From Siphonodentalium dalli (lineage: Eukaryota > Mollusca > Scaphopoda > Gadilida > Siphonodentaliidae), in contig CP136062.1 of NCBI GenBank assembly GCA_032622095.1, forward strand, positions 56,711,849 to 56,775,848: 64,000 nucleotides of DNA, given 5' to 3'. This document shows, piece by piece, positions 7,959 to 35,087 of this stretch (positions within the stretch are counted from its first letter, which is position 1; the number at the start of each line of letters is the position of its first letter). The notes under the pieces were generated by a model. That model did no database searches. It was not told where the DNA came from and saw only the letters and a list, made by a program, of their open reading frames with translations. Position numbers and translations under genes: made by a program.

Positions 7959-8044
7959 GTGCTTGCCATTTTTTCCCCGATGGTTTTTATTCGAATTATT
8001 TACACACTTTGAGACTGTTCTATTGCTCAGCAGTCTCATTAAGG

Positions 8045-8454
8045 GTACGTTCATACGCTGGCAAGTTTGCACGGTGTGTTTTTGCAGGCATTTCATCATA
8101 AAAAACCACATGGTGCCTTAATATGAACGGATACATGCACATAACATGCATCTTTACCAAAGCTAACGACATGAGAAGTAAAATATATGTAGTTCCACTT
8201 GTAACGGCGCTACTGACATTTGCCTTCAAATACCTGTATGGTTTATTCTTGCGAGATAATTGCATGCTATTTACAGGCAAATTCCGGTAGCATCGCCACA
8301 GGTGGAACAACAGATCTTTTACTTCGCACGTAGTTAGCTGTGGTACAGATGCATCTTATATGGTTGTTTCCGTTCATATTCTGCCACCATATCGTTTTTT
8401 ACGACAAAATGCCTGCAAACCATACTGTGCAAACTTGCCAGTGTATGAACGTAC
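8045..8454. mobile_element. ~410-bp MITE with long terminal inverted repeats
   Basis: The left end GTACGTTCATACGCTGGCAA (8045) and the right end, reading GTACGTTCATACACTGGCAA on the other strand (8454), extend into ~200-bp imperfect arms sharing blocks such as GTTTGCA, AATATGAACGG and ATGCATCTTTACC. The whole unit folds back on itself. The same family, with an extra insertion, occurs at 34351-35087 and in truncated form in every unit of the 20-34 kb array. The ORFs on both strands are by-products of the palindrome. Confidence 0.8.
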
Positions 8455-8780
8455 ACTGTAGAATGCTTTATTTACTCAATCATGAATTAACATGAAATTA
8501 GAGATGAATGTGAACATATTTTTGTTAAGATGATGATTACATGATTGTGTTATCGCATGTGCTTAAATTTGCATCGGTTAGATTTAACTCGATATCTCAG
8601 GTCATTCAAATGTGTGTTGGGCACCATGAGCCATACCATTACGGACAATGCCAGATTTTGAAGTTTCGAACTTATGAGTGAACAATTTACAATTAACTAG
8701 AGAAACATCAAACAATAAAATATGTTGTTACCCTCCTCCCGAATTTACTCCCTTCTGATTGGCCCAAGTCCTGTAACGTG

Positions 8781-10920: not shown

Positions 10921-12207
10921 TCCATAGTTGTAAATTTTGCGTATACATGTATAACTGTATAACACAAGAGAGGAAAGGTGGCGTAGTTGGGAACTCGCAG
11001 CTAGACAACCCTTTCGCCAAATGAAGACAAACAGCAACACCATGCATTCAAATTTAAAGCTGTATAATATGTTCATAATTATATGAATAGCATAAATTGC
11101 TGCATATTAGATTAATCACTCGTAGAAAACAGACATGACTACGATATTTATAAAGCAGGGTGTCAGGACTCAGGGTGCTGCATGCACACCCCCGTCGAGG
11201 AAATATGCAATGGTGAATTCGGTAGCTTCTGTGATAATATAGCTCCCCGTGCATGTTGGGGGTCATAACCCCCCCCCCTGCGTTGCATGGGGAAGAGGCC
11301 ATCACTGGTATTAACATCAATAGAAGACTAACAATGATTTAAACAGAATGTCGACCACTTGAGTTATCGCGCAAATAATTATTTTAAGCGGTCTGATGAC
11401 TTTGTCCCAGTCAACGGCTCTTCAGCGGTTCAGAGTTTAACTCACTGTGGTCAAACACAGTCGCAATGATTGGGTTGTCAGCGGACACATATTACACGGT
11501 GTGCATGATCCATGTAAAACGCAAAATACACGATATTTACAGAGATTACATGTATGTGTGTATCCACCTAATTAACAGGTACAATAATTATATAATAGTA
11601 AATGTAATATTAATATATTAATTGAATTCTAGGCACATCCACATTCCGAATTTATGTCATGAACCCATCTAGTGTGAGGGACAATAAAAAGTTTTAATAA
11701 TGTCGTTTTAATATGTCGATTGCGAAATTTTCTAAATTATTGCATGAATAATAGTAGTAGTTGTATTTTATCGCTAATGTCGGTGAGTTGTTTGGAAGTG
11801 CGAAACAAAAAATAAAACATTGACAAAAATAATAAATAATTTTAATAATAAAGACCAAGGCAATGTGGATGTGCCCGTTACTACATGTATATGTAAATAA
11901 TTTATTATTTGATAGCCTCGTATCATTCACACAGGAATGCTGTCATCGCGACACGCACAACATACATGTAAATGTCGACTTGAAACGATGGGTCACACGG
12001 GCTACGGATACACGTTTGGATTAGATAAACAGATCGGAGGTCAAAGTCTGGTATATGTTTTAATCATGTCATTCGCCCTATAAGTCGTAGTTATTTATGT
12101 TTCGGATATTATTTTGAGAAGAACGGGCTCGCGTGTCATGTGCGAGTTTAGTGGTGTTTAGGATAGCGTTGCCATAAATTAAACGACGGCGGCTCCGTTG
12201 CTAATAT
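10921..12207. other. AT-rich non-coding stretch
   Basis: Short ORFs only. A C-run near 11270 and AT-rich blocks around 11580-11860. No domain or element recognised. Confidence 0.4.
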
Positions 12208-12653
12208 GTGACCCGCCATATCAAATCCAGTCGCAAGTCGGGATTTTTTTTACCCTGTGCCAATGCATTCTCTTATATATGCGAGGCGACCATATATAAG
12301 AGAATGCATTGGCCTAACAATGTTTTATCATTTTTTTTAAATAAATGTTTCTTACAATTTTTAGGACATAAAATAAAAAAACATCCATTACCCTGCAGGG
12401 AGCCCCACACATATATAGAAGCATATAGAAGAGTGTCGTCTGCTCATGTTTGTCTGGGGGCTCTGTATGGGTGAAATCATAAAATTGTTAAAGAATACAA
12501 GACAAAATTATTAAAATGGTAAAAAATTGTTAGGCCAATGCATTCTCTTATATATGCGAGGCGACCTATGGTCGACTCGCATATATAAGTGAATGCATTG
12601 GCACAGGGTAAAAAATATCCCGACTTACGACTGGATTTGATATGGCGGGTCAC
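12208..12653. mobile_element. 446-bp composite foldback element (palindromes within a palindrome)
   Basis: The outer inverted repeat begins GTGACCCGCCATATCAAATC at 12208 and its reverse complement ends at 12653. Inside lies a module bounded by CCCTGTGCC (12253) and GGCACAGGG (ending 12608). Each end of that module is a hairpin made of CAATGCATTCTCTTATATAT-GCGAGGCGACC and its reverse complement. The left hairpin has lost part of its centre and the right one is complete. The spacer contains a further inverted pair, GGAGCCCC / GGGGCTC. The same module occurs inside two unrelated elements at 15099 and 15949. Confidence 0.8.
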
Positions 12654-12678
12654 GTATGTCCCATCGCATCAAGCGCAT

Positions 12679-14544: not shown

Positions 14545-15098
14545 TATAATAATTATCCAGTCAACATGACCCAATCGATGCAGATGGATACACGTGATGC
14601 GATTGACTGCTCATATAACAATGTACCGAAGATAGCTATAATTACGTATATAACCCAAAAAGCATAATTTGTGCATGGTGTTATATATACTTGGTGGGAA
14701 ACCATCCGAAATGTTCAGGTAATATGTTCCGCAAACAACCAATGTTTGTTGAACTTATTATCTCAATATTTCCTAAGGGAACTACTCGTCACTGAGTATT
14801 TCATATAGAAAGGGTTAATTGAATTTATCATTCGTCATTCACACACCCTATGTTACATTTCCATTTGTATTTTCCAAAGTTTGTCCGCAGTCGATATTAC
14901 AGGGCAATAGTGACGTAATTTATCATAGCTCTGTCCGAAGATTCACGAAATGGTTTATAAATTTTACAAACTATGCACTTTCGCGAAAATTAAGTAATTT
15001 GTTGACCAAACTGACCAAAAATCACCAGAACGTTAGAAAATTTAACAACTGAACAGATTTTGAAGAATGGCGCCAATAATACAAAATGAGCTAGATCG

Positions 15099-15498
15099 TT
15101 AACCCTTTACCCAACAGAACGGCCCTGTGCCAATGCATTCTCTTATATATGCGAGTCGACCATAGGTCGCCTCGCATATATAAGAGAATGCATTGGCTTA
15201 ACACATTAAAAATTATAAAATTGTTAAAGAATGTAAGAAAAAATGGTAAAAAGTGTTAAAAAAAGATTTTTTTTAGGCCAATGCATTCTCTTATATATGC
15301 GAGGCGACCTATGGTCGACTCGCATATATAAGAGAATGCATTGGCACAGGGCATAACTATAACCATCACAATGTGGTCAATGAGCCGGTTCCAATGATAT
15401 CCATATTTGTATGGTTTTATTGAGACAGACCCAAGATATTTTAGGCTGTTGAAGCTTTATTTGGCCGGTTTTGGCCGGTTTGTTGGGTAAAGGGTTAA
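15099..15498. mobile_element. piggyBac-like MITE with TTAA flanks, copy 1
   Basis: TTAA is followed by CCCTTTACCCAACAGAACGG at the left, and the right end closes with the inverted TGTTGGGTAAAGGG followed by TTAA. TTAA target duplications with CCC(T)-starting inverted ends are the hallmark of piggyBac-superfamily elements, and no transposase is present. Immediately inside the left end sits the CCCTGTGCC...GGCACAGGG palindromic module (15123-15351). The remainder (15352-15475) is unique to this family and recurs inverted in the second copy. Confidence 0.8.
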
Positions 15499-15948
15499 AC
15501 ACCGTCAGTCGATACTTTAGTCGGCAACCTATTTTTTCCGTAATCAGGGACAGGAAACACGTCACTAATGTAATCTCTAAACCACATTCAGACATTCTGA
15601 TAGTTGGTTTCTGGAATTAATGCAGTGGATGGGATAGTTGTTGCAGGACTCAGGAGTTATTATACTTACGTGTGGCAGGGATCATGTGCATTTTGTGAAC
15701 ATCAGTCTATTAAATGGTTGGGTGAATTTGATGTTCAAACAGACGCACAATTTACCTATTTTCCTTGTAAATTTCAAATATATTTATTACTTTTTAATGA
15801 CTACTGATGTTTTAATGTGCGTTGTGATTTTCCACAGCTTGTGTAACAGTTTATCCCATCATTGTGCATATCCACATGTGCAGCCCATGCACTATAGTTT
15901 ATCCCGTCAGATAAACCTTTCAATATACAAGTACACTGTATACATGTT
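15499..15948. other. 450-bp spacer between two inverted piggyBac-like MITEs
   Basis: The spacer contains ORFs of 67 and 104 codons in overlapping frames with no recognisable domain. Because the flanking MITEs are inverted relative to each other, this segment could move as the payload of a composite element. There is no direct evidence that it has. Confidence 0.4.
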
Positions 15949-16310
15949 TTAACCCTTTATCCAACAAACCGGCCAAAAACGCCCAAATAAAGCTTCAACA
16001 GCCTAAAATATCTTCGGTCTGTCTCAATAACACCATACAAATATGGATATCATTGGAACCGGTTTATTGACCACATTGTGATGGTTACAGTTATGCCCTG
16101 TGCCAATGCATTCTCTTATATATGCGAGTCGACAATAGGTCGCCTCGAATATATAAGAGAATGCATTGGCCTAAAAAACATTTTTTAACAATTTTTATAA
16201 TATTTTTCTACATTCTTTGACAATTTTATCATTTTTAATATGTGTTAAGCCAATGCATTCTCTTATATATGCGAGGCGACATGTGGCCGTTCTGTTGGGT
16301 AAAGGGTTAA
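15949..16310. mobile_element. piggyBac-like MITE with TTAA flanks, copy 2 (inverted, internally deleted)
   Basis: Starts TTAACCCTTTATCCAACAAA and ends TGTTGGGTAAAGGGTTAA, so both TTAA flanks are intact. Relative to copy 1 it is in opposite orientation. The palindromic module begins at 16096, but its second hairpin is cut off after GCGAGGCGAC (about 16280), leaving only half of the last stem next to GTGGCCGTTCTG. Such loss of one hairpin arm is typical of replication slippage at palindromes. Confidence 0.8.
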
Positions 16311-16421: not shown

Positions 16422-16624
16422 CTATGACACTTGACAAATGATCATAAAGGTATCTTCGTTGTGAGTGTCATGGAATTTCCAGCCGGTGTACTCAGCTAAC
16501 CGCATATATAGATCCGATCCTCCATCAGGCTCTCCTGACCCCCACTCAATCCAGGGCAGTGGGTAGCCATTCCTGTTGCAGAACTCATAATCAGTACCAC
16601 ACCGCATGCCGTCGATCCATGCAT
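16422..16624 (-). CDS. Terminal exon: C-terminal half of C-type lectin domain
   Basis: The acceptor is TATTACAG just right of 16624. The exon then opens with AT completing a split codon and reads AWIDGMRCGTDYEFCNRNG, PLPWIEWGSGEPDGGSD, GWKFHDTHNEDTFMIICQVS and stop. The WI(D/G)G-like start, the EPD tripeptide in the place of the EPN/QPD sugar-specificity motif, and the final F-x-I-x-CQ are standard landmarks of the second half of the fold. EPD is unusual: EPN predicts mannose-type and QPD galactose-type binding. The canonical WND is replaced by FHD, so calcium-dependent sugar binding is uncertain. An ATG at 16637 lies in the intron and is not the start. The exon length of 203 bp fits a phase-1 start. 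Confidence 0.85.
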
Positions 16625-19600
16625 CTGTAATAGACATGTGTTACAACAGATGTGAATACAAATCAGATCATATTATAACTATGGTGGTTCAAAATGTAAT
16701 AATTTCAACAATGGTGGTCATTTTGATAAACTGTTTGCAAACTTCTTTCAAAACTGAAATTTATGGATTCACCAAAAAGCTAGTGCAAGTGTTAGATTGT
16801 TTCATGTCATTTTTGGGACAAGGCCTTCAAAACGACACTCACTGGTTTTCAACTGAAAAATCACGTTTTCTGCCAAAGTGGAACTAATGAACTGGTGAAT
16901 GTATTAGATCAAACTATTATCTATTTGCTCACAAGTATTCAACTATACAGCTACATTCAATTTAGTTTTTAGAAATATTTTTGTTCAAAATCATTTCACA
17001 TAATTCCGAAGTATGAATTACCTTCCTTTGAGATTTAACAGTAGCTACATTTCAGACAGGGTGAATGATGTCCATTTTACTATCAATACAAATCAATGTA
17101 TTCAATCCTGTCAATTTTCCAGCTGCGAGTAATTTATAATTTGCTGATGGATTATGTCTAGAAATGCATGCGGACGTGTTTGGGCGCCGTCGCTGGATAC
17201 TGGGAGGTCACACAATGTCATGGATCACCATGGCTTCGGCGATCGAAAATTATTTTCGGAATTGGAATATATACGTACGATCAACCGAGTCTCCTACTGG
17301 TAGTTGGGCTTTGATGTAATCATACATGAGTTGGTTTTCTATCTCTACCAAATGTCCACCGTCCGCCTCACACTGCGAAATGGCTTCGTCTCTGTGCTCC
17401 TTATTGGTGTATAACTTGGTACAATAGGCCGGGTCATATCCAATGGGACAGACTTCATGCAGAAAAAGATTATAACATAAACACTTAAACAAAATGAAGC
17501 AAACAAACCATGAAATCTCCAGATGTGCAACGGAACTTTGAAGTGATAAGCTCCTATGGCATGGGGCGATACGTTCCACGATGTTACCATGTGATAAGCA
17601 CCCTATACTGTCAGAAAAATGCAGAGAGCCTACTCAAGAGTAAACTCAGGCTCTTAATTTAAAACCATCAATACCAGACTACATGGAATATGGTGAATTG
17701 ATGGGATTGCCATTAGATATAACAATTTATTATATACTTGCCCATGAATTATAAGGTTTTAGCAGTGAGATATAAGTGATATCCCACTAGTGATATATCG
17801 ATATCTCACTGGTATTATTGCGCCGTATGGATCCTCATGTGTGTAGTCAGTTTATACCTCATAGTGAATGATTTCCTGCACACATCATGTACTGACATTC
17901 ATTGGGGGCCATCGGCAAGTAACGAAAGTATATAATAAATACAAAATCTAAACTTTTTGAGTGTTTTAATTATTGGAATATGTTTTTGGGCGTAATGTGT
18001 CAGCTTGAAATTTCGGATGTATTGACATTCATTGGGGGCCATAGGCAAGTAACTAAAGTATATAATAAACAGAATATCCACACTTTTTCAGTGAATATGG
18101 GTTAAATCTCATTCGTGATGACAAAACATTTGAATTTCCACTCGTGGCTAAAGCCACTCATAGAAATTCAATGTTTTGTCATCACTCATGAGATATAACC
18201 CATATCCACTGAAAAAGTTTATATATCCTCTATATAACTGAGAATTATTGAATACTGGACAAAAAATGTAAATGTGGAAGAAACCTTCTAAGGGAAAGCC
18301 CTGTATAATTTATTATCGAAACTCCTCTATAGTGCAGTTGATTCCTCCTTTAAATTGTTGAGAAATGTTCGGAAATTTCTCATCGAATGTGAGCACCACG
18401 ATTATTTTTACTATTAAATAGTTTATTCAGCTTGTTCTCGTGGAAATAATCAATTAACGGGCGTATTTTAGTGGTCGAAATATGCTCATATTGACATTAT
18501 GTATGACCGGATGACTCCAAAAAACATGGCCGCCAGCGCCATCTTGGATTTCAAAATTAAATCCATTAGCACGGGCTACAGGCCGAACTGTTCATCTGAT
18601 CTGATGAAATTTGTCACGGATGTTAGTATTGACATATAGATGGGAATGTGTCATTTTGGGGTCATTCCGCAATAAAACAAGGCCGTCGGCAGACATCTTG
18701 GATTTTACTCTTTGCATGACTCCTACGGGTCGTACCTTTGGTCGGATCATCATGAAAGTTGTCTTGGCTGATGACATTGACATTAGAGGTGAAAGATTCA
18801 TTTTTGGGTCATTCGACCATAAAACTTGTCCGTTGACAGCCATCTTGGATTTTTTACTCTTTGCATGACTAAATCCGTTGGCACGGGCTTCAAGTTGTAC
18901 TTTTGGTCGGATCATTATGAAATTTGTCATGTCTGTTGACATTGACAAGTATGTGGGAATCATTCGGCAAAAAAAACATGGCCCAGCGGCCATCTTGAAG
19001 TTTAAAATTCAATCCATTAGCACGGGATTATATGAGGATGCACAATGACGCCAATCACCAACTATTTTTGTGGAATTTATCCAACAAAGAACGATCGTGC
19101 AATATATCCAAATAACGTTTAACTGGTTTGGTAAAATTCAAACTCTGATGACACGTTACGCAAGACGATCAGCTAGAACCGCCGCTGTTAGCTCCAATCG
19201 GGCGTCGTTATTGGTTTCAGTGGTATTACTCGCCTCTTCGACAAAAACGAACACTGGCATGTAACATATTCTTCTCGAAAGCATATAGACCGCTTATTTT
19301 CAAGTACGTGACGTACACTTTGCAAAATTAAATGACTTTCACTGCAGCTCTATATGAAGCAAAACAATAGTCTAACGTAGTATTCCGTCTTTGCTATGAT
19401 GCTTGTAGAGAAAACTGATGCTGTTACGAAAATGTAACGATATTTTTTTCTAAAATTGTCATTTTCCCGGAGTTGGACAAATCGATGGAAAAAACATTAA
19501 AGTATATTCGATGATGGTTACTGCTGGCAAAGCGACGATAACATCCATTTTGATTGTGCTTGGTTTGCAACAAACAACGCAATCATTATTGAACTATTAA

Positions 19601-22600
19601 AGGTACTCAATCCGATTAAGCACCCCTAAATCACAATTTCTTTGGCTTTGGGGGTAAAACATATTTGATTCGAGTCAAGGAACCCATCCTCCAAAGCTCA
19701 GAGTGATCAGATACCGATTTTGAAATTTGTTAATTTTTGAGATGTGGTCCACTTTCACGTGCTGAAACGGATAAATTACGGACAAATTGCGGGTGTAAGA
19801 TGGATAACTCTAAAACAAAGTGGTTATTATTGTTAATAGTAACCACTTGAGTTTCGAGTTATCCATCTTACACCCGCAATTTGTCCGTTTGAGCACGTGA
19901 AACTGGACCACATCTGAAACATTAACAAACTTCAAAAATCGATATCTGATCACTCTGAGCTTTGAAGGGTGGGTTCCTCGACTCGAATAAAATATTTTTT
20001 ACCCCCGAAGCCAAAGAAATAGTAATTTAGGGGTGCTTAATCGGATTGAGTACCTTCAAACCATATATATATTTTTAATGTAGATAACATAGCAGCACCG
20101 GTTTTCCCTACCAGCATCATATCAACTCAACAGAACCCACCAACATCATAACAAACTTGCAGGACCACTTAACCAGGGGCTGGTGTATAGAATGACCAGT
20201 GTGTTTCTAGTGGGCAATAAATATCTCAGTGCCACGCCCTCATACAAGTACAAGTATAATCCTATACTAATCTGAATATACCCTTACCGAATGTCGTTGT
20301 GGTCGTTGTAGTCGTGGTGGTGGTCGTCGTTGTGGTCGTGGTGGTTGTTGTGGTCGTGGTGGTTGTTGTGGTCGTCGTGGTTGGTTCTTGAAAAAAAAGT
20401 TGTATTCAAAGATGTATTAAGATTTCCAGCCCGTCGAACGACAATACATATTTACTGTACATTCATACACTGGTAAGTTTGGACGGTCTATATGTTTGCA
20501 GGAATTTCGTCGTAAAGAACGATTTGATTCCAGAATATGAACGGAAACATGCATATAAAATGCATCTGTACCACATTTAACTACATGAGAATTAAAGTGT
20601 CTGTAGTTCCACATGTAGCGATGCTACCCGAATTTGCCTGTAAATAACATGCAATTATATATAGAATATACGCATAGTGTTTCTGAATAACAAATTTAAT
20701 CCACGAGTGAGATTGGCGATTTACAACACGAGCTTCAGCGAGTAGTATATATCGCCAATCCCAAGAGTGGTTTAAATTTGTTATTCAGAAACACTATGCG
20801 TATATTTTGTTTATGCCACGATCTTTACAATGCGATGGATAAACACTTTGCCGTTCAAATTGTATGGATAAAGTTTAATCCACTCTGCGAAGTTTAATCA
20901 ACAGCAGGCACGTTTAATCAACAGGTGTTGTTTAATTGTAAAACTTTATTTATATAGTAAGATAGGCGATCGTGGTATACATAGCATGAATCAATCGTAT
21001 ATTAGGTATTTGAAGGCAATTGCTCGTAGCTCCGTTACAAGTGGAACTACATACATTTTACCTCTCATGTCGTTCGCTTTGGTAAAGATGCATGTTAAAT
21101 GCATGTTTCCGTTCATATTATGGCACCATGTGGTTTTCCACCGAATGCCGGCTGATACGGACCCTGGCTCTTACGGACCCTGGCTCTTACGGACCCTGGC
21201 TTTTACGGACCACCGGCTGATACGGCCCCTGGCTTATACGGACCCTCGGCTTATACGGACCCTGGCTCATAAGGACCTCAATTAAAATATACAGGTTCAA
21301 TGCAGTCATTGTGGAATTATGCCAGTCAAAAATAAATCAGTTGAATATATACCAGTTGTGTTTTTACTAACATGTTTTCATAACAAATCAAACTCAGTGG
21401 ATTCATACTGATCACCATTCACTGACCATTTATCATCGCGTGTCTGTTTATAAAACAATATAAGGGATCACACACGAGTGTGTATACAAGGGACAATAAA
21501 TCAGTTGAAACAAGTTGTGTTTTTACTAACATGTTTTCGTAACAAATCAAACTCAGTGGATTCATCCTGATCACCATTCACTGACCATTTATCACCGCGT
21601 GTCTGTTTACACAACGACATAAAGGGATCACACGCGCGTGTTTATACAACGATGAAGAGATTAATTAACGCGATTCAATAAATGTTTTTTCAAGCCAGAA
21701 CATCACCGAAATTCTCAATTAATACAGATATATGTGTGAAAATACAATCATAATTATATATTAAATTCATAAATATAAGTTTGAAAAAAAACGAAAAAAT
21801 CGGTTAAATTCATAAATATAATCGCTATCTGATCACTCTGAGCTTTGAAGGGTGGGTTCCTCGACTCGAATAAAATATTTTTTACCCCCGAAGCCAAAGA
21901 AATAGTAATTTAGGGGTGCTTAATCGGATTGAGTACCTTCAAACCATATATATTTTTTAATGTAGATAACATAGCAGCACCGGTTTTCCCTACCAGCATC
22001 ATATCAACTCAACAGAACCCACCAACATCATAACAAACTTGCAGGACCACTTAACCAGGGGCTGGTGTATAGAATGACCAGTGTGTTTCTAGTGGGCAAT
22101 AAATATCTCAGTGCCACGCCCTCATACAAGTACAAGTATAATCCTATACTAATCTGAATAGACCCTTACCGAATGTCGTTGTGGTCGTTGTAGTCGTGGT
22201 GGTGGTCGTGGTGATTGTTGTGGTCGTGGTGGTTGTTGTGGTCGTCGTGGTTGATTCTTGAAAAAAAAGTTGTATTCAAAGATGTATTAAGATTTCCAGC
22301 CCGTCGAACGACAATACATATTTACTGTACATTCATACACTGGTAAGTTTGGACGGTATATATGGTTGTAGGAATTTCGTCGTAAAGAACGATTTGATTC
22401 CAGAATATGAACGGAAACATGCATATAAAATGCATCTGTACCACATCTAACTACATGAGAATTAAAGTGTCTGTAGTTCCACATGTAGCGATGCTACCCG
22501 AATTTGCCTGTAAATAACAAGCAATTATATATAGAATATACGCATAGTGTTTCTGAATAACAAATTTAATCCACGAGTGAGATTGGCGATTTACAACACG

Positions 22601-25600
22601 AGCTTCAGCGAGTAGTATATATCGCCAATCCCAAGAGTAGTTTAAATTTGTTATTCAGAAACACTATGCGTATATTTTGTTTATGCCACGATCTTTACAA
22701 TGCGATGGATAAACACTTTGCCGTTCAAATTGTATGGATAAAGTTTAATCCACTCTGCGAAGTTTAATCAACAGTAGGCACGTTTAATCAACAGGTGTTG
22801 TTTAATTGTAAAACTTTATTTATATAGTAAGATAGGCGATCGTGGTATACATAGCATGAATCAATCGTATATTAGGTATTTGAAGGCAATTGCTCGTAGC
22901 TCCGTTACAAGTGGAACTACATACATTTTACCTCTCATGTCGTTCGCTTTGGTAAAGATGCATGTTAAATGCATGTTTCCGTTCATATTATGGCACCATG
23001 TGGTTTTCTACCGAATGCCGGCTGATACGGACCCTGGCTCTTACGGACCCTGGCTCTTACGGACCCTGGCTTTTACGGACCACCGGCTGATACGGACCCT
23101 GGCTTATACGGACCCTCGGCTTATACGGACCCTGGCTCATACGGACCTCAATTAAAATATACAGGTTCAATGCAGTCATTGTGGAATTATGCCAGTCAAA
23201 AATAAATCAGTTGAATATATACCAGTTGTGTTTTTACTAACATGTTTTCATAACAAATCAAACTCAGTGGATTCATACTGATCACCATTCACTGACCATT
23301 TATCATCGCGTGTCTGTTTATAAAACAATATAAGGGATCACACACGAGTGTGTATACAAGGGACAATAAATCAGTTGAAACAAGTTGTGTTTTTACTAAC
23401 ATGTTTTCGTAACAAATCAAACTCAGTGGATTCATCCTGATCACCATTCACTGACCATTTATCACCGCGTGTCTGTTTACACAACGACATAAAGGGATCA
23501 CACGCGCGTGTTTATACAACGATGAAGAGATTAATTAACGCGATTCAATAAATGTTTTTTTCAAGCCAGAACATCACCGAAATTCTCAATTAATACAGAT
23601 ATATGTGTGAAAATACAATCATAATTATATATTAAATTCATAAATATAAGTTTAAAAAAAAACGAAAAAATCGGTTAAATTCATAAATATAATCGATATC
23701 TGATCACTCTGAGCTTTGAAGGGTGGGTTCCTCGACTCGAATAAAATATTTTTTACCCCCGAAGCCAAAGAAATAGTAATTTAGGGGTGCTTAATCGGAT
23801 TGAGTACCTTCAAACCATATATATTTTTAATGTAGATAACATAGCAGCACCGGTTTTCCCTACCAGCATCATATCAACTCAACAGAACCCACCAACTTCA
23901 TAACAAACTTGCAGGACCACTTAACCAGGGGCTGGTGTATAGAATGACCAGTGTGTTTCTAGTGGGCAATAAATATTTCAGTGCCACGCCCTCATACAAG
24001 TACAAGTATAATCCTATACTAATCTGAATAGACCCTTACCGAATGTCGTTGTGGTCGTTGTAGTCGTGGTGGTGATTGTTGTGGTCGTGGTGGTTGTTGT
24101 GGTCGTCGTGGTTGATTCTTGAAAAAAAAGTTGTATTCAAAGATGTATTAAGATTTCCAGCCCGTCGAACGACAATACATATTTACTGTACATTCATACA
24201 CTGGTAAGTTTGGACGGTATATATGGTTGTAGGAATTTCGTCGTAAAGAACGATTTGATTCCAGAATATGAACGGAAACATGCATATAAAATGCATCTGT
24301 ACCACATCTAACTACATGAGAATTAAAGTGTCTGTAGTTCCACATGTAGCGATGCTACCCGAATTTGCCTGTAAAAAACATGCAATTATATATAGAATAT
24401 ACGCATAGTGTTTCTGAATAACAAATTTAATCCACGAGTGAGATTGGCGATTTACAACACGAGCTTCAGCAAGTAGTATATATCGCCAATCCCAAGAGTG
24501 GTTTAAATTTGTTATTCAGAAACACTATGCGTATATTTTGTTTATGCCACGATCTTTACAATGCGATGGATAAACACTTTGCCGTTCAAATTGTATGGAT
24601 AAAGTTTAATCCACTCTGCGAAGTTTAATCAACAGCAGGCACGTTTAATCAACAGGTGTTGTTTAATTGTAAAACTTTATTTATATAGTAAGATAGGCGA
24701 TCGTGGTATACATAGCATGAATCAATCGTATATTAGGTATTTGAAGGCAATTGCTCGTAGCTCCGTTACAAGTGGAACTACATACATTTTACCTCTCATG
24801 TCGTTCGCTTTGGTAAAGATGCATGTTAAATGCATGTTTCCGTTCATATTATGGCACCATGTGGTTTTCCACCGAATGCCGGCTGATACGGACCCTGGCT
24901 CTTACGGACCCTGGCTCTTACGGACCCTGGCTTTTACGGACCACCGGCTGATACGGACCCTGGCTTATACGGACCCTCGGCTTATACGGACCCTGGCTCA
25001 TACGGACCTCAATTAAAATATACAGGTTCAATGCAGTCATTGTGGAATTATGCCAGTCAAAAATAAATCAGTTGAATATATACCAGTTGTGTTTTTACTA
25101 ACATGTTTTCATAACAAATCAAACTCAGTGGATTCATACTGATCACCATTCACTGAAAAAAGTTGTATTCAAAGATGTATTAAGATTTCCAGCCCGTCGA
25201 ACGACAATACATATTTACTGTACATTCATACACTGGTAAGTTTGGACGGTATATATGGTTGTAGGAATTTCGTCGTAAAGAACGATTTGATTCCAGAATA
25301 TGAACGGAAACATGCATATAAAATGCATCTGTACCACATCTAACTACATGAGAATTAAAGTGTCTGTAGTTCCACATGTAGCGATGCTACCCGAATTTGC
25401 CTGTAAATAACATGCAATTATATATAGAATATACGCATAGTGTTTCTGAATAACAAATTTAATCCACGAGTGAGATTGGCGATTTACAACACGAGCTTCA
25501 GCGAGTAGTATATATCGCCAATCCCAAGAGTGGTTTAAATTTGTTATTCAGAAACACTATGCGTATATTTTGTTTATGCCACGATCTTTACAATGCGATG

Positions 25601-28600
25601 GATAAACACTTTGCCGTTCAAATTGTATGGATAAAGTTTAATCCACTCTGCGAAGTTTAATCAACAGCAGGCACGTTTAATCAACAGGTGTTGTTTAATT
25701 GTAAAACTTTATTTATATAGTAAGATAGGCGATCGTGGTATACATAGCATGAATCAATCGTATATTAGGTATTTGAAGCAAACAAAATGAAGCAAACAAA
25801 CCATGAAATCTCCAGATGTGCAACGGAACTTTGAAGTGATAAGCTCCTATGGCATGGGGCGATACGTTCCACGATGTTACCATGTGATAAGCACCCTATA
25901 CTGTCAGAAAAATGCAGAGAGCCTACTCAAGAGTAAACTCAGGCTCTTAATTTAAAACCATCAATACCAGACTACATGGAATATGGTGAATTGATGGGAT
26001 TGCCATTAGATATAACAATTTATTATATACTTGCCCATGAATTATAAGGTTTTAGCAGTGAGATATAAGTGATATCCCACTAGTGATATATCGATATCTC
26101 ACTGGTATTATTGCGCCGTATGGATCCTCATGTGTGTAGTCAGTTTATACCTCATAGTGAATGATTTCCTGCACACATCATGTACTGACATTCATTGGGG
26201 GCCATCGGCAAGTAACGAAAGTATATAATAAATACAAAATCTAAACTTTTTGAGTGTTTTAATTATTGGAATATGTTTTTGGGCGTAATGTGTCAGCTTG
26301 AAATTTCGGATGTATTGACATTCATTGGGGGCCATAGGCAAGTAACTAAAGTATATAATAAACAGAATATCCACACTTTTTCAGTGAATATGGGTTAAAT
26401 CTCATTCGTGATGACAAAACATTTGAATTTCCACTCGTGGCTAAAGCCACTCATAGAAATTCAATGTTTTGTCATCACTCATGAGATATAACCCATATCC
26501 ACTGAAAAAGTTTATATATCCTCTATATAACTGAGAATTATTGAATACTGGACAAAAAATGTAAATGTGGAAGAAACCTTCTAAGGGAAAGCCCTGTATA
26601 ATTTATTATCGAAACTCCTCTATAGTGCAGTTGATTCCTCCTTTAAATTGTTGAGAAATGTTCGGAAATTTCTCATCGAATGTGAGCACCACGATTATTT
26701 TTACTATTAAATAGTTTATTCAGCTTGTTCTCGTGGAAATAATCAATTAACGGGCGTATTTTAGTGGTCGAAATATGCTCATATTGACATTATGTATGAC
26801 CGGATGACTCCAAAAAACATGGCCGCCAGCGCCATCTTGGATTTCAAAATTAAATCCATTAGCACGGGCTACAGGCCGAACTGTTCATCTGATCTGATGA
26901 AATTTGTCACGGATGTTAGTATTGACATATAGATGGGAATGTGTCATTTTGGGGTCATTCCGCAATAAAACAAGGCCGTCGGCAGACATCTTGGATTTTA
27001 CTCTTTGCATGACTCCTACGGGTCGTACCTTTGGTCGGATCATCATGAAAGTTGTCTTGGCTGATGACATTGACATTAGAGGTGAAAGATTCATTTTTGG
27101 GTCATTCGACCATAAAACTTGTCCGTTGACAGCCATCTTGGATTTTTTACTCTTTGCATGACTAAATCCGTTGGCACGGGCTTCAAGTTGTACTTTTGGT
27201 CGGATCATTATGAAATTTGTCATGTCTGTTGACATTGACAAGTATGTGGGAATCATTCGGCAAAAAAAACATGGCCCAGCGGCCATCTTGAAGTTTAAAA
27301 TTCAATCCATTAGCACGGGATTATATGAGGATGCACAATGACGCCAATCACCAACTATTTTTGTGGAATTTATCCAACAAAGAACGATCGTGCAATATAT
27401 CCAAATAACGTTTAACTGGTTTGGTAAAATTCAAACTCTGATGACACGTTACGCAAGACGATCAGCTAGAACCGCCGCTGTTAGCTCCAATCGGGCGTCG
27501 TTATTGGTTTCAGTGGTATTACTCGCCTCTTCGACAAAAACGAACACTGGCATGTAACATATTCTTCTCGAAAGCATATAGACCGCTTATTTTCAAGTAC
27601 GTGACGTACACTTTGCAAAATTAAATGACTTTCACTGCAGCTCTATATGAAGCAAAACAATAGTCTAACGTAGTATTCCGTCTTTGCTATGATGCTTGTA
27701 GAGAAAACTGATGCTGTTACGAAAATGTAACGATATTTTTTTCTAAAATTGTCATTTTCCCGGAGTTGGACAAATCGATGGAAAAAACATTAAAGTATAT
27801 TCGATGATGGTTACTGCTGGCAAAGCGACGATAACATCCATTTTGATTGTGCTTGGTTTGCAACAAACAACGCAATCATTATTGAACTATTAAAGGTACT
27901 CAATCCGATTAAGCACCCCTAAATCACAATTTCTTTGGCTTTGGGGGTAAAACATATTTGATTCGAGTCAAGGAACCCATCCTCCAAAGCTCAGAGTGAT
28001 CAGATACCGATTTTGAAATTTGTTAATTTTTGAGATGTGGTCCACTTTCACGTGCTGAAACGGATAAATTACGGACAAATTGCGGGTGTAAGATGGATAA
28101 CTCTAAAACAAAGTGGTTATTATTGTTAATAGTAACCACTTGAGTTTCGAGTTATCCATCTTACACCCGCAATTTGTCCGTTTGAGCACGTGAAACTGGA
28201 CCACATCTGAAACATTAACAAACTTCAAAAATCGATATCTGATCACTCTGAGCTTTGAAGGGTGGGTTCCTCGACTCGAATAAAATATTTTTTACCCCCG
28301 AAGCCAAAGAAATAGTAATTTAGGGGTGCTTAATCGGATTGAGTACCTTCAAACCATATATATATTTTTAATGTAGATAACATAGCAGCACCGGTTTTCC
28401 CTACCAGCATCATATCAACTCAACAGAACCCACCAACATCATAACAAACTTGCAGGACCACTTAACCAGGGGCTGGTGTATAGAATGACCAGTGTGTTTC
28501 TAGTGGGCAATAAATATCTCAGTGCCACGCCCTCATACAAGTACAAGTATAATCCTATACTAATCTGAATATACCCTTACCGAATGTCGTTGTGGTCGTT

Positions 28601-31600
28601 GTAGTCGTGGTGGTGGTCGTCGTTGTGGTCGTGGTGGTTGTTGTGGTCGTGGTGGTTGTTGTGGTCGTCGTGGTTGGTTCTTGAAAAAAAAGTTGTATTC
28701 AAAGATGTATTAAGATTTCCAGCCCGTCGAACGACAATACATATTTACTGTACATTCATACACTGGTAAGTTTGGACGGTCTATATGTTTGCAGGAATTT
28801 CGTCGTAAAGAACGATTTGATTCCAGAATATGAACGGAAACATGCATATAAAATGCATCTGTACCACATTTAACTACATGAGAATTAAAGTGTCTGTAGT
28901 TCCACATGTAGCGATGCTACCCGAATTTGCCTGTAAATAACATGCAATTATATATAGAATATACGCATAGTGTTTCTGAATAACAAATTTAATCCACGAG
29001 TGAGATTGGCGATTTACAACACGAGCTTCAGCGAGTAGTATATATCGCCAATCCCAAGAGTGGTTTAAATTTGTTATTCAGAAACACTATGCGTATATTT
29101 TGTTTATGCCACGATCTTTACAATGCGATGGATAAACACTTTGCCGTTCAAATTGTATGGATAAAGTTTAATCCACTCTGCGAAGTTTAATCAACAGCAG
29201 GCACGTTTAATCAACAGGTGTTGTTTAATTGTAAAACTTTATTTATATAGTAAGATAGGCGATCGTGGTATACATAGCATGAATCAATCGTATATTAGGT
29301 ATTTGAAGGCAATTGCTCGTAGCTCCGTTACAAGTGGAACTACATACATTTTACCTCTCATGTCGTTCGCTTTGGTAAAGATGCATGTTAAATGCATGTT
29401 TCCGTTCATATTATGGCACCATGTGGTTTTCCACCGAATGCCGGCTGATACGGACCCTGGCTCTTACGGACCCTGGCTCTTACGGACCCTGGCTTTTACG
29501 GACCACCGGCTGATACGGCCCCTGGCTTATACGGACCCTCGGCTTATACGGACCCTGGCTCATAAGGACCTCAATTAAAATATACAGGTTCAATGCAGTC
29601 ATTGTGGAATTATGCCAGTCAAAAATAAATCAGTTGAATATATACCAGTTGTGTTTTTACTAACATGTTTTCATAACAAATCAAACTCAGTGGATTCATA
29701 CTGATCACCATTCACTGACCATTTATCATCGCGTGTCTGTTTATAAAACAATATAAGGGATCACACACGAGTGTGTATACAAGGGACAATAAATCAGTTG
29801 AAACAAGTTGTGTTTTTACTAACATGTTTTCGTAACAAATCAAACTCAGTGGATTCATCCTGATCACCATTCACTGACCATTTATCACCGCGTGTCTGTT
29901 TACACAACGACATAAAGGGATCACACGCGCGTGTTTATACAACGATGAAGAGATTAATTAACGCGATTCAATAAATGTTTTTTCAAGCCAGAACATCACC
30001 GAAATTCTCAATTAATACAGATATATGTGTGAAAATACAATCATAATTATATATTAAATTCATAAATATAAGTTTGAAAAAAAACGAAAAAATCGGTTAA
30101 ATTCATAAATATAATCGCTATCTGATCACTCTGAGCTTTGAAGGGTGGGTTCCTCGACTCGAATAAAATATTTTTTACCCCCGAAGCCAAAGAAATAGTA
30201 ATTTAGGGGTGCTTAATCGGATTGAGTACCTTCAAACCATATATATTTTTTAATGTAGATAACATAGCAGCACCGGTTTTCCCTACCAGCATCATATCAA
30301 CTCAACAGAACCCACCAACATCATAACAAACTTGCAGGACCACTTAACCAGGGGCTGGTGTATAGAATGACCAGTGTGTTTCTAGTGGGCAATAAATATC
30401 TCAGTGCCACGCCCTCATACAAGTACAAGTATAATCCTATACTAATCTGAATAGACCCTTACCGAATGTCGTTGTGGTCGTTGTAGTCGTGGTGGTGGTC
30501 GTGGTGATTGTTGTGGTCGTGGTGGTTGTTGTGGTCGTCGTGGTTGATTCTTGAAAAAAAAGTTGTATTCAAAGATGTATTAAGATTTCCAGCCCGTCGA
30601 ACGACAATACATATTTACTGTACATTCATACACTGGTAAGTTTGGACGGTATATATGGTTGTAGGAATTTCGTCGTAAAGAACGATTTGATTCCAGAATA
30701 TGAACGGAAACATGCATATAAAATGCATCTGTACCACATCTAACTACATGAGAATTAAAGTGTCTGTAGTTCCACATGTAGCGATGCTACCCGAATTTGC
30801 CTGTAAATAACAAGCAATTATATATAGAATATACGCATAGTGTTTCTGAATAACAAATTTAATCCACGAGTGAGATTGGCGATTTACAACACGAGCTTCA
30901 GCGAGTAGTATATATCGCCAATCCCAAGAGTAGTTTAAATTTGTTATTCAGAAACACTATGCGTATATTTTGTTTATGCCACGATCTTTACAATGCGATG
31001 GATAAACACTTTGCCGTTCAAATTGTATGGATAAAGTTTAATCCACTCTGCGAAGTTTAATCAACAGTAGGCACGTTTAATCAACAGGTGTTGTTTAATT
31101 GTAAAACTTTATTTATATAGTAAGATAGGCGATCGTGGTATACATAGCATGAATCAATCGTATATTAGGTATTTGAAGGCAATTGCTCGTAGCTCCGTTA
31201 CAAGTGGAACTACATACATTTTACCTCTCATGTCGTTCGCTTTGGTAAAGATGCATGTTAAATGCATGTTTCCGTTCATATTATGGCACCATGTGGTTTT
31301 CTACCGAATGCCGGCTGATACGGACCCTGGCTCTTACGGACCCTGGCTCTTACGGACCCTGGCTTTTACGGACCACCGGCTGATACGGACCCTGGCTTAT
31401 ACGGACCCTCGGCTTATACGGACCCTGGCTCATACGGACCTCAATTAAAATATACAGGTTCAATGCAGTCATTGTGGAATTATGCCAGTCAAAAATAAAT
31501 CAGTTGAATATATACCAGTTGTGTTTTTACTAACATGTTTTCATAACAAATCAAACTCAGTGGATTCATACTGATCACCATTCACTGACCATTTATCATC

Positions 31601-34280
31601 GCGTGTCTGTTTATAAAACAATATAAGGGATCACACACGAGTGTGTATACAAGGGACAATAAATCAGTTGAAACAAGTTGTGTTTTTACTAACATGTTTT
31701 CGTAACAAATCAAACTCAGTGGATTCATCCTGATCACCATTCACTGACCATTTATCACCGCGTGTCTGTTTACACAACGACATAAAGGGATCACACGCGC
31801 GTGTTTATACAACGATGAAGAGATTAATTAACGCGATTCAATAAATGTTTTTTTCAAGCCAGAACATCACCGAAATTCTCAATTAATACAGATATATGTG
31901 TGAAAATACAATCATAATTATATATTAAATTCATAAATATAAGTTTAAAAAAAAACGAAAAAATCGGTTAAATTCATAAATATAATCGATATCTGATCAC
32001 TCTGAGCTTTGAAGGGTGGGTTCCTCGACTCGAATAAAATATTTTTTACCCCCGAAGCCAAAGAAATAGTAATTTAGGGGTGCTTAATCGGATTGAGTAC
32101 CTTCAAACCATATATATTTTTAATGTAGATAACATAGCAGCACCGGTTTTCCCTACCAGCATCATATCAACTCAACAGAACCCACCAACTTCATAACAAA
32201 CTTGCAGGACCACTTAACCAGGGGCTGGTGTATAGAATGACCAGTGTGTTTCTAGTGGGCAATAAATATTTCAGTGCCACGCCCTCATACAAGTACAAGT
32301 ATAATCCTATACTAATCTGAATAGACCCTTACCGAATGTCGTTGTGGTCGTTGTAGTCGTGGTGGTGATTGTTGTGGTCGTGGTGGTTGTTGTGGTCGTC
32401 GTGGTTGATTCTTGAAAAAAAAGTTGTATTCAAAGATGTATTAAGATTTCCAGCCCGTCGAACGACAATACATATTTACTGTACATTCATACACTGGTAA
32501 GTTTGGACGGTATATATGGTTGTAGGAATTTCGTCGTAAAGAACGATTTGATTCCAGAATATGAACGGAAACATGCATATAAAATGCATCTGTACCACAT
32601 CTAACTACATGAGAATTAAAGTGTCTGTAGTTCCACATGTAGCGATGCTACCCGAATTTGCCTGTAAAAAACATGCAATTATATATAGAATATACGCATA
32701 GTGTTTCTGAATAACAAATTTAATCCACGAGTGAGATTGGCGATTTACAACACGAGCTTCAGCAAGTAGTATATATCGCCAATCCCAAGAGTGGTTTAAA
32801 TTTGTTATTCAGAAACACTATGCGTATATTTTGTTTATGCCACGATCTTTACAATGCGATGGATAAACACTTTGCCGTTCAAATTGTATGGATAAAGTTT
32901 AATCCACTCTGCGAAGTTTAATCAACAGCAGGCACGTTTAATCAACAGGTGTTGTTTAATTGTAAAACTTTATTTATATAGTAAGATAGGCGATCGTGGT
33001 ATACATAGCATGAATCAATCGTATATTAGGTATTTGAAGGCAATTGCTCGTAGCTCCGTTACAAGTGGAACTACATACATTTTACCTCTCATGTCGTTCG
33101 CTTTGGTAAAGATGCATGTTAAATGCATGTTTCCGTTCATATTATGGCACCATGTGGTTTTCCACCGAATGCCGGCTGATACGGACCCTGGCTCTTACGG
33201 ACCCTGGCTCTTACGGACCCTGGCTTTTACGGACCACCGGCTGATACGGACCCTGGCTTATACGGACCCTCGGCTTATACGGACCCTGGCTCATACGGAC
33301 CTCAATTAAAATATACAGGTTCAATGCAGTCATTGTGGAATTATGCCAGTCAAAAATAAATCAGTTGAATATATACCAGTTGTGTTTTTACTAACATGTT
33401 TTCATAACAAATCAAACTCAGTGGATTCATACTGATCACCATTCACTGACCATTTATCATCGCGTGTCTGTTTATAAAACAATATAAGGGATCACACACG
33501 AGTGTGTATACAAGGGACAATAAATCAGTTGAAACAAGTTGTGTTTTTACTAACATGTTTTCGTAACAAATCAAACTCAGTGGATTCATCCTGATCACCA
33601 TTCACTGACCATTTATCACCGCGTGTCTGTTTACACAACGACATAAAGGGATCACACGCGCGTGTTTATACAACGATGAAGAGATTAATTAACGCGATTC
33701 AATAAATGCTTTTTCAAGCCAGAACATCACCGAAATTCTCAATTAATACAGATATATGTGTGAAAATACAATCATAATTATATATTAAATTCATAAATAT
33801 AAGTTTGAAAAAAAACGAAAAAATCGGTTAAATTCATAAATATAATCGATATCTGATCACTCTGAGCTTTGAAGGGTGGGTTCATCGACTCGAATAAAAT
33901 ATTTTTTACCCCCGAAGCCAAAGAAATAGTAATTTAGGGGTGCTTAATCGGATTGAGTACCTTCAAACCATATATATTTTTTAATGTAGATAACATAGCA
34001 GCACCGGTTTTCCCTACCAGCATCATATCAACTCAACAGAACCCACCAACATCATAACAAACTTGCAGGACCACTTAACCAGGGGCTGGTGTATAGAATG
34101 ACCAGTGTGTTTCTAGTGGGCAATAAATATCTCAGTGCCACGCCCTCATACAAGTACAAGTATAATCCTATACTAATCTGAATAGACCCTTACCGAATGT
34201 CGTTGTGGTCGTTGTAGTCGTGGTGGTGGTCGTGGTGATTGTTGTGGTCGTGGTGGTTGTTGTGGTCGTCGTGGTTGATT
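16422..34280 (-). CDS. C-type lectin gene, 3' part: Thr-stalk exon array plus lectin domain
   Basis: This is a split gene read on the minus strand: up to seven Thr-rich exons (listed separately) followed by two exons that together encode one C-type lectin domain of ~124 residues and a stop codon. All junctions are GT-AG and all introns seen are phase 1, so any number of Thr exons joins in frame to the lectin domain. The predicted product is a secreted or cell-surface lectin with an O-glycosylatable mucin-like stalk ahead of a C-terminal carbohydrate-binding domain. Such genes commonly act in innate recognition. Start codon, signal peptide and any membrane segment must lie in exons to the right of 34280 that I could not identify. 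Whether all Thr exons are used in one transcript is unknown. Confidence 0.75.
16625..17278 (-). other. Intron within the lectin domain (654 bp)
   Basis: The donor is GATC|GTACGT (17279/17278) and the acceptor TATTACAG. It splits a His codon (C|AT) and joins ...GDSVDH to AWIDG... in frame. The ORF seen on the plus strand within it shows no support. Confidence 0.7.
17279..17452 (-). CDS. Exon: N-terminal half of C-type lectin domain
   Basis: A 174-bp exon, phase 1 on both sides, with acceptor TTTCTGCATGAAG| and donor |GTACGT. It encodes VCPIGYDPAYCTKLYTNKEH, then RDEAISQCEADGGHLVEIEN and a tail ending LPVGDSVD. The pattern C-x(2-4)-Y...C.K.Y followed by A...C...GGHLV.I is the classic first half of a C-type lectin domain (first disulphide cysteines, alpha-1 helix and the GGxL turn). 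The first base of its Val codon comes from the upstream exon: the Thr exons all end in a lone G, giving GTC. A longer minus-strand ORF over this exon (to 17579) runs into intron. Confidence 0.85.
17895..18075. repeat. Two-copy direct repeat (~118-bp period) in lectin intron
   Basis: GACATTCATTGGGGGCCAT at 17894 and again at 18023, each followed by ~40 bp of closely similar sequence. Duplicated at 26187-26368. Confidence 0.7.
18082..18218. repeat. 137-bp palindromic MITE in lectin intron
   Basis: The arms ACTTTTTCAGTG and CACTGAAAAAGT enclose ATATGGGTTA / TAACCCATAT and GATGACAAAAC / GTTTTGTCATC stems, meeting at GTGGCTAAAGCCAC. Duplicated at 26375-26511. Confidence 0.75.
18480..19030. repeat. 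Degenerate ~150-bp tandem repeat, four copies
   Basis: The core word (A)GCCATCTTGGATTT or a close variant recurs at about 18537, 18690, 18838 and 18991. Spacing is ~150 bp, with shared flanks such as GGTCGGATCAT and CCATTAGCACGGG. The ORFs of 133 and 85 codons here are repeat translations. Duplicated at 26773-27323. Similar AAAATGGCCGCC words occur at 35790-36340 and 47655-47690. Confidence 0.65.
19600..20056. mobile_element. 457-bp foldback MITE in lectin intron
   Basis: The two halves are reverse complements. The left end is AAGGTACTCAATCCGATTAA and the right end its complement ending GAGTACCTT. The inner arms share ATGGATAACTC and meet at a TTATTATTGTTAATAGTAA centre. Complete copies occur only here and at 27893-28349. 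All other units of the array keep only its right-hand ~118 bp, starting at ATATCTGATCACTCTGAGC, so the left boundary of the 1.87-kb unit falls inside this element. Confidence 0.8.
20288..20386 (-). CDS. Thr-stalk exon 1A (99 bp)
   Basis: The acceptor is a T-run followed by CAAG (just right of 20386) and the donor is ACATTCG|GTAAGGG. Between them are two bases completing a Glu/Xaa codon, then Pro, thirty consecutive Thr codons (mixed ACC/ACA/ACG/ACT), Phe, and one G left over. Phase is 1 on both sides and the length is divisible by three. Mixed codons, rather than a pure trinucleotide run, indicate that the protein sequence is being kept. The Thr tract is expected to be heavily O-glycosylated. 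Confidence 0.75.
20665..20806. repeat. 142-bp palindrome nested in the array MITE
   Basis: The arms AATATACGCATAGTGTTTCT and its reverse complement (ending CTATGCGTATATT at 20806) enclose ATTGGCGAT / ATCGCCAAT. It interrupts the 8045-family MITE, which reads straight through in the copy at 8280, so it is a later insertion. Repeated in every unit (for example 22535, 24396, 25428 and their +8293 counterparts, plus 34559). Confidence 0.75.
21150..21285. repeat. 15-bp minisatellite, ~8 copies per unit
   Basis: Variants of TACGGACCCTGGCTC repeat in a 15-bp step. The array replaces the right terminal arm of the MITE in units 1-3 and is absent from unit 4B. It gives a 99-codon open frame on the plus strand only because the period is divisible by three. 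Recurs at about 23020, 24881, 29443, 31313 and 33174. Confidence 0.75.
21344..21655. repeat. ~160-bp internal direct duplication
   Basis: CAGTTGTGTTTTTACTAACA...GATCACACACGAGTG is followed by a second close copy starting at about 21500 and ending in CACGCGCGTG. Present in each complete unit. In copy A the unit-3 deletion begins inside the first of these two copies. Confidence 0.7.
22170..22256 (-). CDS. Thr-stalk exon 2A (87 bp)
   Basis: Same splice sites as exon 1A. It reads Ser, then 25 Thr and one Ile (ATC), then Phe and a trailing G. It is four codons shorter than exon 1A, so the in-frame length change occurred without breaking phase. Confidence 0.75.
24040..24117 (-). CDS. Thr-stalk exon 3A (78 bp)
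   Basis: Same splice sites and phase. It reads Ser, 22 Thr with one Ile, Phe and a trailing G, a further loss of three codons relative to exon 2A. Still divisible by three. Confidence 0.75.
28581..28679 (-). CDS. Thr-stalk exon 1B (99 bp)
   Basis: Identical to exon 1A and displaced by exactly 8293 bp. It lies in the second copy of the large segmental duplication and splice sites are intact. Confidence 0.75.
30463..30549 (-). CDS. Thr-stalk exon 2B (87 bp)
   Basis: Identical to exon 2A at +8293 bp, including the single Ile codon. Confidence 0.75.
32333..32410 (-). CDS. Thr-stalk exon 3B (78 bp)
   Basis: Identical to exon 3A at +8293 bp. Confidence 0.75.
34194..34280 (-). CDS. Thr-stalk exon 4B (87 bp)
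   Basis: Same type as exon 2 (Ser, 25 Thr plus one Ile, Phe). It is the rightmost, hence 5'-most, Thr exon. Its counterpart in the first large copy is missing because an ~838-bp deletion at about 25157 removed it. Confidence 0.75.
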
Positions 34281-34350
34281 CTTGAAAAAAAAGTTGTATT
34301 CAAAGATGTATTAAGATTTCCAGCCCGTCGAACGACAATACATATTTACT

Positions 34351-35087
34351 GTACATTCATACACTGGTAAGTTTGGACGGTATATATGGTTGTAGGAATT
34401 TCGTCGTAAAGAACGATTTGATTCCAGAATATGAACGGAAACATGCATATAAAATGCATCTGTACCACATCTAACTACATGAGAATTAAAGTGTCTGTAG
34501 TTCCACATGTAGCGATGCTACCCGAATTTGCCTGTAAATAACATGCAATTATATATAGAATATACGCATAGTGTTTCTGAATAACAAATTTAATCCACGA
34601 GTGAGATTGGCGATTTACAACACGAGCTTCAGCGAGTAGTATATATCGCCAATCCCAAGAGTGGTTTAAATTTGTTATTCAGAAACACTATGCGTATATT
34701 TTGTTTATGCCACGATCTTTACAATGCGATGGATAAACACTTTGCCGTTCAAATTGTATGGATAAAGTTTAATCCACTCTGCGAAGTTTAATCAACAGCA
34801 GGCACGTTTAATCAACAGGTGTTGTTTAATTGTAAAACTTTATTTATATAGTAAGATAGGCGATCGTGGTATACATAGCATGAATCAATCGTATATTAGG
34901 TATTTGAAGGCAATTGCTCGTAGCTCCGTTACAAGTGGAACTACATACATTTTACCTCTCATGTCGTTCGCTTTGGTAAAGATGCATGTTAAATGCATGT
35001 TTCCGTTCATATTATGGCACCATGTGGTTTTCTATGTCGAAATGCCTTCAAATCATACCGTGCACACTTGCCAGCGTATAAACGTAC
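34351..35087. mobile_element. Complete MITE of the 8045 family, 737 bp with nested insertion
   Basis: The left end is GTACATTCATACACTGGTAA and the right end GCCAGCGTATAAACGTAC. The interior includes the 142-bp palindrome and a further ~180 bp starting TATGCCACGATC and ending GATCGTGGTATA. It is the only complete member inside the array region and marks the right boundary of the duplicated block. Confidence 0.75.

Follow-up and report, generated by a model that had tools for sequence, protein, structure and literature searches.

Classical mucins are rich in Thr and Ser and carry O-glycans, a Pro-Thr-Ser composition is a trait of mucin-like glycoproteins, and the neck repeat of the lectin DC-SIGNR/CLEC4M is encoded in a single exon. 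Here, we describe a locus in a 64,000-nucleotide stretch of the genome of the scaphopod mollusc Siphonodentalium dalli (contig CP136062.1; the whole stretch is referred to as the window) that is probably an animal C-type lectin domain (CTLD) gene with an N-terminal spacer of repeated, separately spliced, near-pure Thr exons.

Among the described systems, LPA KIV-2 is closest in mechanism, as near-identical exon-plus-intron units lie within the gene and protein length changes with them. Its 5.5-kb units hold two exons of 160 and 182 bp and are present in 1 to >40 copies (PMC4378929). KIV-2 differs in that each unit encodes a folded kringle in two exons and in that variation between people is proven (PMC4378929), whereas here each unit would contribute one exon with a low-complexity Thr run. 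MUC16/CA125 is closest as a mucin of repeated exon sets, with tandem repeats in separate exons, five per repeat, but its repeats have 156 residues with a SEA domain and are not pure Thr (PMC3431878). Closest as a lectin with a variable spacer is the variable number tandem repeat (VNTR) in the neck of DC-SIGNR/CLEC4M, with 5-9 tandem repeats in the study cited; it differs in having 23-residue repeats and tetramer assembly in a type II membrane protein with no Thr-rich arm (PMC2797785). All mucins are stated to harbour a large VNTR exon, and classical mucins resemble the present locus as repeat-rich (glyco)proteins but have their VNTRs within one large exon, whereas the repeat here is exon plus intron (PMC13345508). 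Drosophila glue genes encode O-glycosylated glue proteins with Pro/Ser/Thr-rich internal repeats, and the title of that paper ties their copy-number dynamics to nearby short repeats; they differ in that the repeats lie inside coding regions or arise as whole-gene copies, and the passages describe no lectin domain (PMC10835880).

A known protein of the same general kind is rosetteless of the choanoflagellate Salpingoeca rosetta, a CTLD protein with a signal peptide and a run of 50-60 consecutive Thr/Ser, and Rtls-like animal proteins are named in a placozoan, a cnidarian, a nematode and a fish (PMC4381721). Rosetteless differs in that it has two CTLDs with conserved calcium and mannose residues and a mixed Ser/Thr run, and repeated Thr exons are not described in those passages (PMC4381721). 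Among the matches listed from open-licence PMC titles and abstract openings, neither an array of repeated Thr exons ahead of a C-type lectin domain nor a spacer of separately spliced, tandemly copied pure-Thr exons was found described, and the narrowest query matched no paper at all. A bivalve lectin review (PMC12842671) had 0 word matches for mucin-like, stalk, exon or tandem repeat; a single passage of it deals with Ser/Thr-rich low-complexity regions; the passages of PMC6626399 and PMC3611597, which hold the terms C-type lectin and threonine-rich, contain no such array.

Seven threonine blocks in frame with a C-type lectin domain

On the minus strand of the window, seven Thr blocks of 99, 87, 78, 99, 87, 78 and 87 bp (in ascending coordinates) lie exactly where the original prediction, made from the letters alone, had placed seven exons (Table 1). 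One acceptor, TTTTTTTTCAAG, precedes and one donor, TTCG/GTAAGG (the slash marks the end of the block), follows all seven, and every block has a length divisible by three, is free of stop codons and has phase-1 junctions at both ends, as had been proposed. The translations follow the pattern S/P-(T)n-F with n = 30, 25 or 22 Thr, and a single Ile is present in five of the seven copies. If all blocks are spliced in, they sum to 615 bp, or 205 codons, of which 179 encode Thr; counting and frame joining bear out this number and the predicted reading into the lectin exon that begins at 17452. Such a region is a long Thr/Ser-rich repeat region of the mucin-like kind, with just two Pro across it, and so lacks the Pro-Thr-Ser composition of mucins.

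With the candidate first exon (see below) as leader, the frame into the CTLD is kept in 128/128 subsets of included blocks, the empty subset counted, because each block is stop-free and a multiple of three. Blocks with phase-1 junctions of this kind could thus be gained, lost or skipped without disturbing the lectin frame. As an ACN run is open in all three forward frames, the frame is set by the lectin exon; its coincidence with the Thr frame is a one-in-three agreement.

The lectin domain is encoded by two exons that follow the last Thr block. Its 125 residues match the C-type lectin domain PF00059 (Pfam Lectin_C) with 25.7 bits against a cut-off of 22.6, and the match covers residues 22-123 of 125 and profile positions 6-106 of 107. 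Two solved structures are related to the domain at E up to 0.01, the best being CLEC4A4 (3vyj) with E 0.0013. It is the lectin domain, together with the intron layout and the repeats, that marks the sequence as animal. At 12204-12657 and 15094-16290 there are a further foldback element and a family of short palindromic repeats that the 3' flank of the lectin gene also carries.

Table 1. Features of the locus; coordinates are positions in the 64,000-nt window, and minus-strand features are listed in transcription order.
Feature	Position	Strand	Length	Remark
Candidate first exon, signal-peptide-like	58766-58865	-		phase-1 donor ACAC/GTATGT, weak
Thr exon 1	34194-34280	-	87 bp	unit 4, most upstream copy
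Introns of 1,783 bp	34193-32411, 32332-30550, 30462-28680, 24039-22257, 22169-20387	-	1,783 bp each	
Thr exon 2	32333-32410	-	78 bp	same sequence as 24040-24117
Thr exon 3	30463-30549	-	87 bp	same sequence as 22170-22256
Thr exon 4	28581-28679	-	99 bp	same sequence as 20288-20386
Junction J1	25774-25800	-		14-bp templated repeat and CTTCA microhomology
Thr exon 5	24040-24117	-	78 bp	
Thr exon 6	22170-22256	-	87 bp	
Thr exon 7	20288-20386	-	99 bp	adjoins lectin exons
CTLD exon 1	17279-17452	-		entered in phase 1
CTLD exon 2 and stop codon	16422-16624	-		stop codon TAG
Exact duplication, copy A	17487-25156		7,670 bp	three Thr exons; identical to 25780-33449
Exact duplication, copy B	25780-33449			identical to 17487-25156
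Truncated eighth unit	25156-25778		623 bp	no Thr exon; identical to 34287-34909 (unit 4)
Foldback element	19597-20059			holds unit breakpoint 19937; 123-bp end 19937-20059 recurs in upstream units
16-bp minisatellite copies	21149-21277, 23018-23147, 24879-25008, 29442-29570, 31311-31440, 33172-33301			

Architecture of the duplications

The Thr blocks recur together with their flanking sequence. Five of the six introns between them are 1,783 bp long, and the sixth, of 4,463 bp, spans the block junction; the last two of the five in transcription order are exact copies of the second and third, which leaves three distinct sequences. Small indels inside the 1,783-bp introns offset each other in length, whereas the Thr exons are 78, 87 or 99 bp and differ by 9-21 bp. 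By this comparison, it is mainly the exon that has changed in net length, by 9 or 12 bases at a step, as a minisatellite would.

The original prediction had derived all seven exons from tandem duplication of a 1.87-kb unit. This account fits four distinct units (with the 99-, 87-, 78- and top 87-bp exons), which are 5-11 substitutions apart in 1,179-1,191 aligned bases. The other three Thr exons apparently come from one exact copy of 8.3 kb; since units 1-3 are found again as a single exact block, a one-step tandem duplication for all seven was rejected. Self-comparison of the window showed zero mismatches in 7,670 + 623 bases; the 623-bp piece is exact to unit 4 and is 99.4-99.7% identical to the other units, unit 3 being next best at 99.7%. 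In transcription order, unit 4 with its Thr exon is followed by units 3, 2 and 1 and by intron to position 25780, whose counterpart in the other copy lies about 35 bp short of the lectin exon. The sequence then goes back to 34909 and covers 623 bases of unit 4, ending at the T run in front of the Thr exon, after which 838 bases including the unit-4 Thr exon are skipped and units 3, 2 and 1 and the lectin exons follow. The block ends about 35 bp short of the lectin exon, and the idea that it holds another lectin gene was rejected for this reason. Duplication had also been cast as a ratchet that lengthens the stalk; this is not supported, because the 8.3-kb event dropped one Thr exon with the skipped bases, and copies are lost as well as gained.

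At junction J1, TTTGTTTGCTTCA is repeated at a 14-bp step and the CTTCA is common with the landing site, while at the second junction (25156) merely a base or two are shared. Read from the sequence, the pattern is one of replication with template switching, unlike homologous recombination between units. Template-switching replication has been reported for exon rearrangements in people (titles and abstract openings of PMC6292170 and PMC4303224). The second jump also fused the T run to CAG (minus strand, 25100-25175), giving an acceptor-like TTTTTTCAG that ends at 25153; its phase-1 use meets TGA after 13 codons, and it may be a harmful cryptic site.

In the older units, the upstream breakpoint lies inside one foldback element and the downstream breakpoint inside another. 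The outer part of the upstream element is kept by unit 4 only and is 87% identical over 55 bp to a copy at 8.0-8.1 kb, and the whole downstream element is found only in unit 1 and its exact copy, the others keeping the 123-bp end. By subtraction, the filler comes to 679-682 bp, which the first duplication would have added. Taken together, the locus has the tandem near-identical exon-plus-intron units and the frame neutrality known from LPA KIV-2, provided that the Thr blocks are exons. With units 5-11 substitutions apart in about 1.19 kb of this one sequence, copy-number differences between individuals are plausible.

The arms of a palindromic foldback element at 8042-8457 are 77-91% identical to the element beside the Thr exon (one unit compared). 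Six copies of a 16-bp minisatellite, with the plus-strand consensus GGCTCATACGGACCCT, lie inside the intronic filler between units. Positions 66-155 of the window are 73% identical over 90 bp to part of an array unit, which hints at another dispersed repeat.

Evidence for exons and alternative explanations

We infer that the Thr blocks are spliced, from the signals at their ends and from their codons. In 48,849 positions outside the array, 11 donors were as good as the Thr-block donor and 12 AG sites had equal upstream pyrimidines. Finding both splice-like sites at most 10 nt from the tract ends by chance has P about 0.0022 x 0.0025 (~5e-6 jointly), an estimate made post hoc with a weight matrix, in which the seven near-identical blocks count as one independent observation. 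The 30 consecutive ACN codons of the 99-bp exon vary at the third position alone, as expected for a tract kept as Thr. We estimate that four different third bases, which need at least three independent substitutions, have P 0.04 if sites mutate alike, and that a looser count of about seven third-position substitutions has P 0.0005. A second coding exon per unit, behind the acceptor-like TTATTTACAG upstream of the Thr exon, was rejected, since phase-1 entry meets a stop after three codons (by eye).

Several observations weigh against a spliced, functional gene. The Thr exons and lectin exon 1 have acceptors that end in AAG, not CAG (AAG ends two of the three kinds of acceptor at the locus). By an acceptor score other than the pyrimidine count above, these acceptors come no higher than the top 19-25% of AG sites, and the Thr and lectin acceptors as a whole lie in the top 13-25%, which is unremarkable. 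The donor of lectin exon 1 is weak and stands in the top 18% among GT sites. No exon with an ATG start, hydrophobic sequence and phase 1 came out of a strict scan, which the candidate first exon failed as well. The two substitutions among Thr copies (P/S and T/I) both change an amino acid, so that no current purifying selection is visible. The Thr tract is also a minisatellite with 9/18/21-bp periods, and its third-position variety may thus reflect fewer events than it seems. In CTLDs, the second conserved disulfide is numbered C2-C3, and EPN or QPD together with WND are the calcium/sugar motifs. In the 3vyj alignment, the C2-C3 cysteine pair is replaced by Y and N, and EPD and FHD stand in place of EPN/QPD and WND. 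These motifs mark classical sugar binding and do not define the CTLD fold; with the motifs and the cysteine pair lost, the domain may be decaying or may not bind sugar, and a classical calcium-dependent sugar site is doubtful here.

The periods of the tract would suit an explanation in which it is an intronic ACC-type minisatellite between splice-like sequences, copied with repeat-rich DNA, while the lectin exons join an upstream first exon directly. An ACN tract is stop-free on the minus strand in any frame, so that its openness is uninformative, the copies are recent and their number adds nothing to a single observation, and the acceptor scores fit this account as well. However, a donor and an acceptor flank the tract at the small joint chance given above (itself post hoc), the CTLD is entered in the Thr frame, for which the chance is one in three, and every change among the 30 codons is at a third position, and we regard an intronic minisatellite as unlikely. 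Still less probable, in our judgement, is a decaying pseudogene with an old lectin exon pair and a repeat array drifting in front of it. The missing cysteines and calcium motifs, the weak donor of lectin exon 1 and the amino-acid changes among Thr copies point that way, but both CTLD exons are open and correctly phased, a CTLD-like C-terminus stands at the end, and we judge the joint loss of the cysteine pair to fit adaptation better than decay.

A different doubt concerns the 8.3-kb block, as zero differences over such a length can also signal assembly error; the newest copying event would be either very recent or such an error. Should the duplication have arisen in assembly or in the library, only four Thr exons would stand in tandem at the true locus. 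We consider this rather unlikely. In its favour, the match is exact, whereas units differ from one another by 5-11 substitutions in about 1.19 kb, and a chimeric library molecule could still yield the junctions seen. Zero differences indicate great youth or error, whereas junctions as odd as these speak against an assembly error of the common kinds. Both are non-homologous with microhomology, and one has a 14-bp templated slip; neither repeat collapse nor haplotype duplication would be expected to leave such junctions. In addition, the 623-bp piece follows unit 4 exactly and the other units less closely. Zero differences and non-homologous junctions also make a haplotype false duplication unlikely.

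First exon and secretion

A looser scan for first exons gave 13 rows, in which the candidate in Table 1 (MDMTLSSAVFVIIMFLLIQEIVGLYGIDGLLDT) is by far the most hydrophobic; its donor is common to three rows. Of 60 simulated sequences as long as the 34.3-64 kb region, 2 held an equally good candidate, the thresholds having been chosen once the candidate was known. It lies 24 kb upstream of the array, and a reverse-transcriptase frame resembling a long interspersed nuclear element (41282-43243, minus strand, 653 aa, RVT_1 64.4 bits) lies between the two. Because of the weak donor and this distance with a reverse-transcriptase frame in between, it is only a candidate, and the gene may have its true first exon beyond the window.

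No membrane anchor was found, with a Pfam scan of 34-64 kb that was not complete. With a real first exon at the candidate site, the product would probably be secreted and not form a membrane stalk. The stalk of the original prediction is supported as a Thr region in frame with a lectin domain; the word presumes a membrane anchor, whereas the best first-exon candidate is signal-peptide-like.

Proposed origin and function

On the reading of the locus as a lectin gene with repeated Thr exons, the array could have arisen in three steps. The first duplication would have had its breaks in two hairpin-forming foldback elements and added about 0.68 kb. Expansion to four 1.87-kb units would have followed, probably by unequal exchange. 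Last, and very recently, a replication-type event involving two jumps of template would have copied 8.3 kb from unit 4 downward, ended about 35 bp before the lectin exon and passed over 838 bp, so that seven Thr exons stood where there had been four.

Most likely, the protein is secreted; its arm, stiff and mucin-like, would reach about 205 residues at most and precede one lectin domain. The threonine arm is presumed to be O-glycosylated, and both reach and glycan density would depend on its length. Put most simply, the gene would make a lectin, secreted or anchored, with a threonine arm whose length is set by exon number. More speculatively, and on balance doubtfully, the locus may act as a fast, two-speed length dial, in which in-exon slippage by multiples of three bases and replication jumps that copy sets of exons both change the arm, so that the lengths of the glycosylated arm would differ widely among individuals of the species and would also be mixed by exon skipping. 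If these proposals are true, a mucin-like arm evolves here by copying whole low-complexity exons and not by slippage in one big exon, a duplication has been caught so young that no base has changed, and the arm length of a lectin could be compared among individuals like kringle number in LPA.

Other searches and features of the window

In viral contigs, a protein search for relatives gave 5 pattern stretches, none of which was confirmed, and a 21-base DNA pattern had no match. Seven matches to a 17-base pattern occurred in bacterial genome contigs, which we estimate to be about or below chance for 257 billion bases. Rfam gave no match at gathering score in the window, and no tRNA was found in it by a scan that used the bacterial code. 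Tandem arrays lie at 46575-47045 (130-bp units) and at 61289-61657 (127-bp units, then a 30-bp one).

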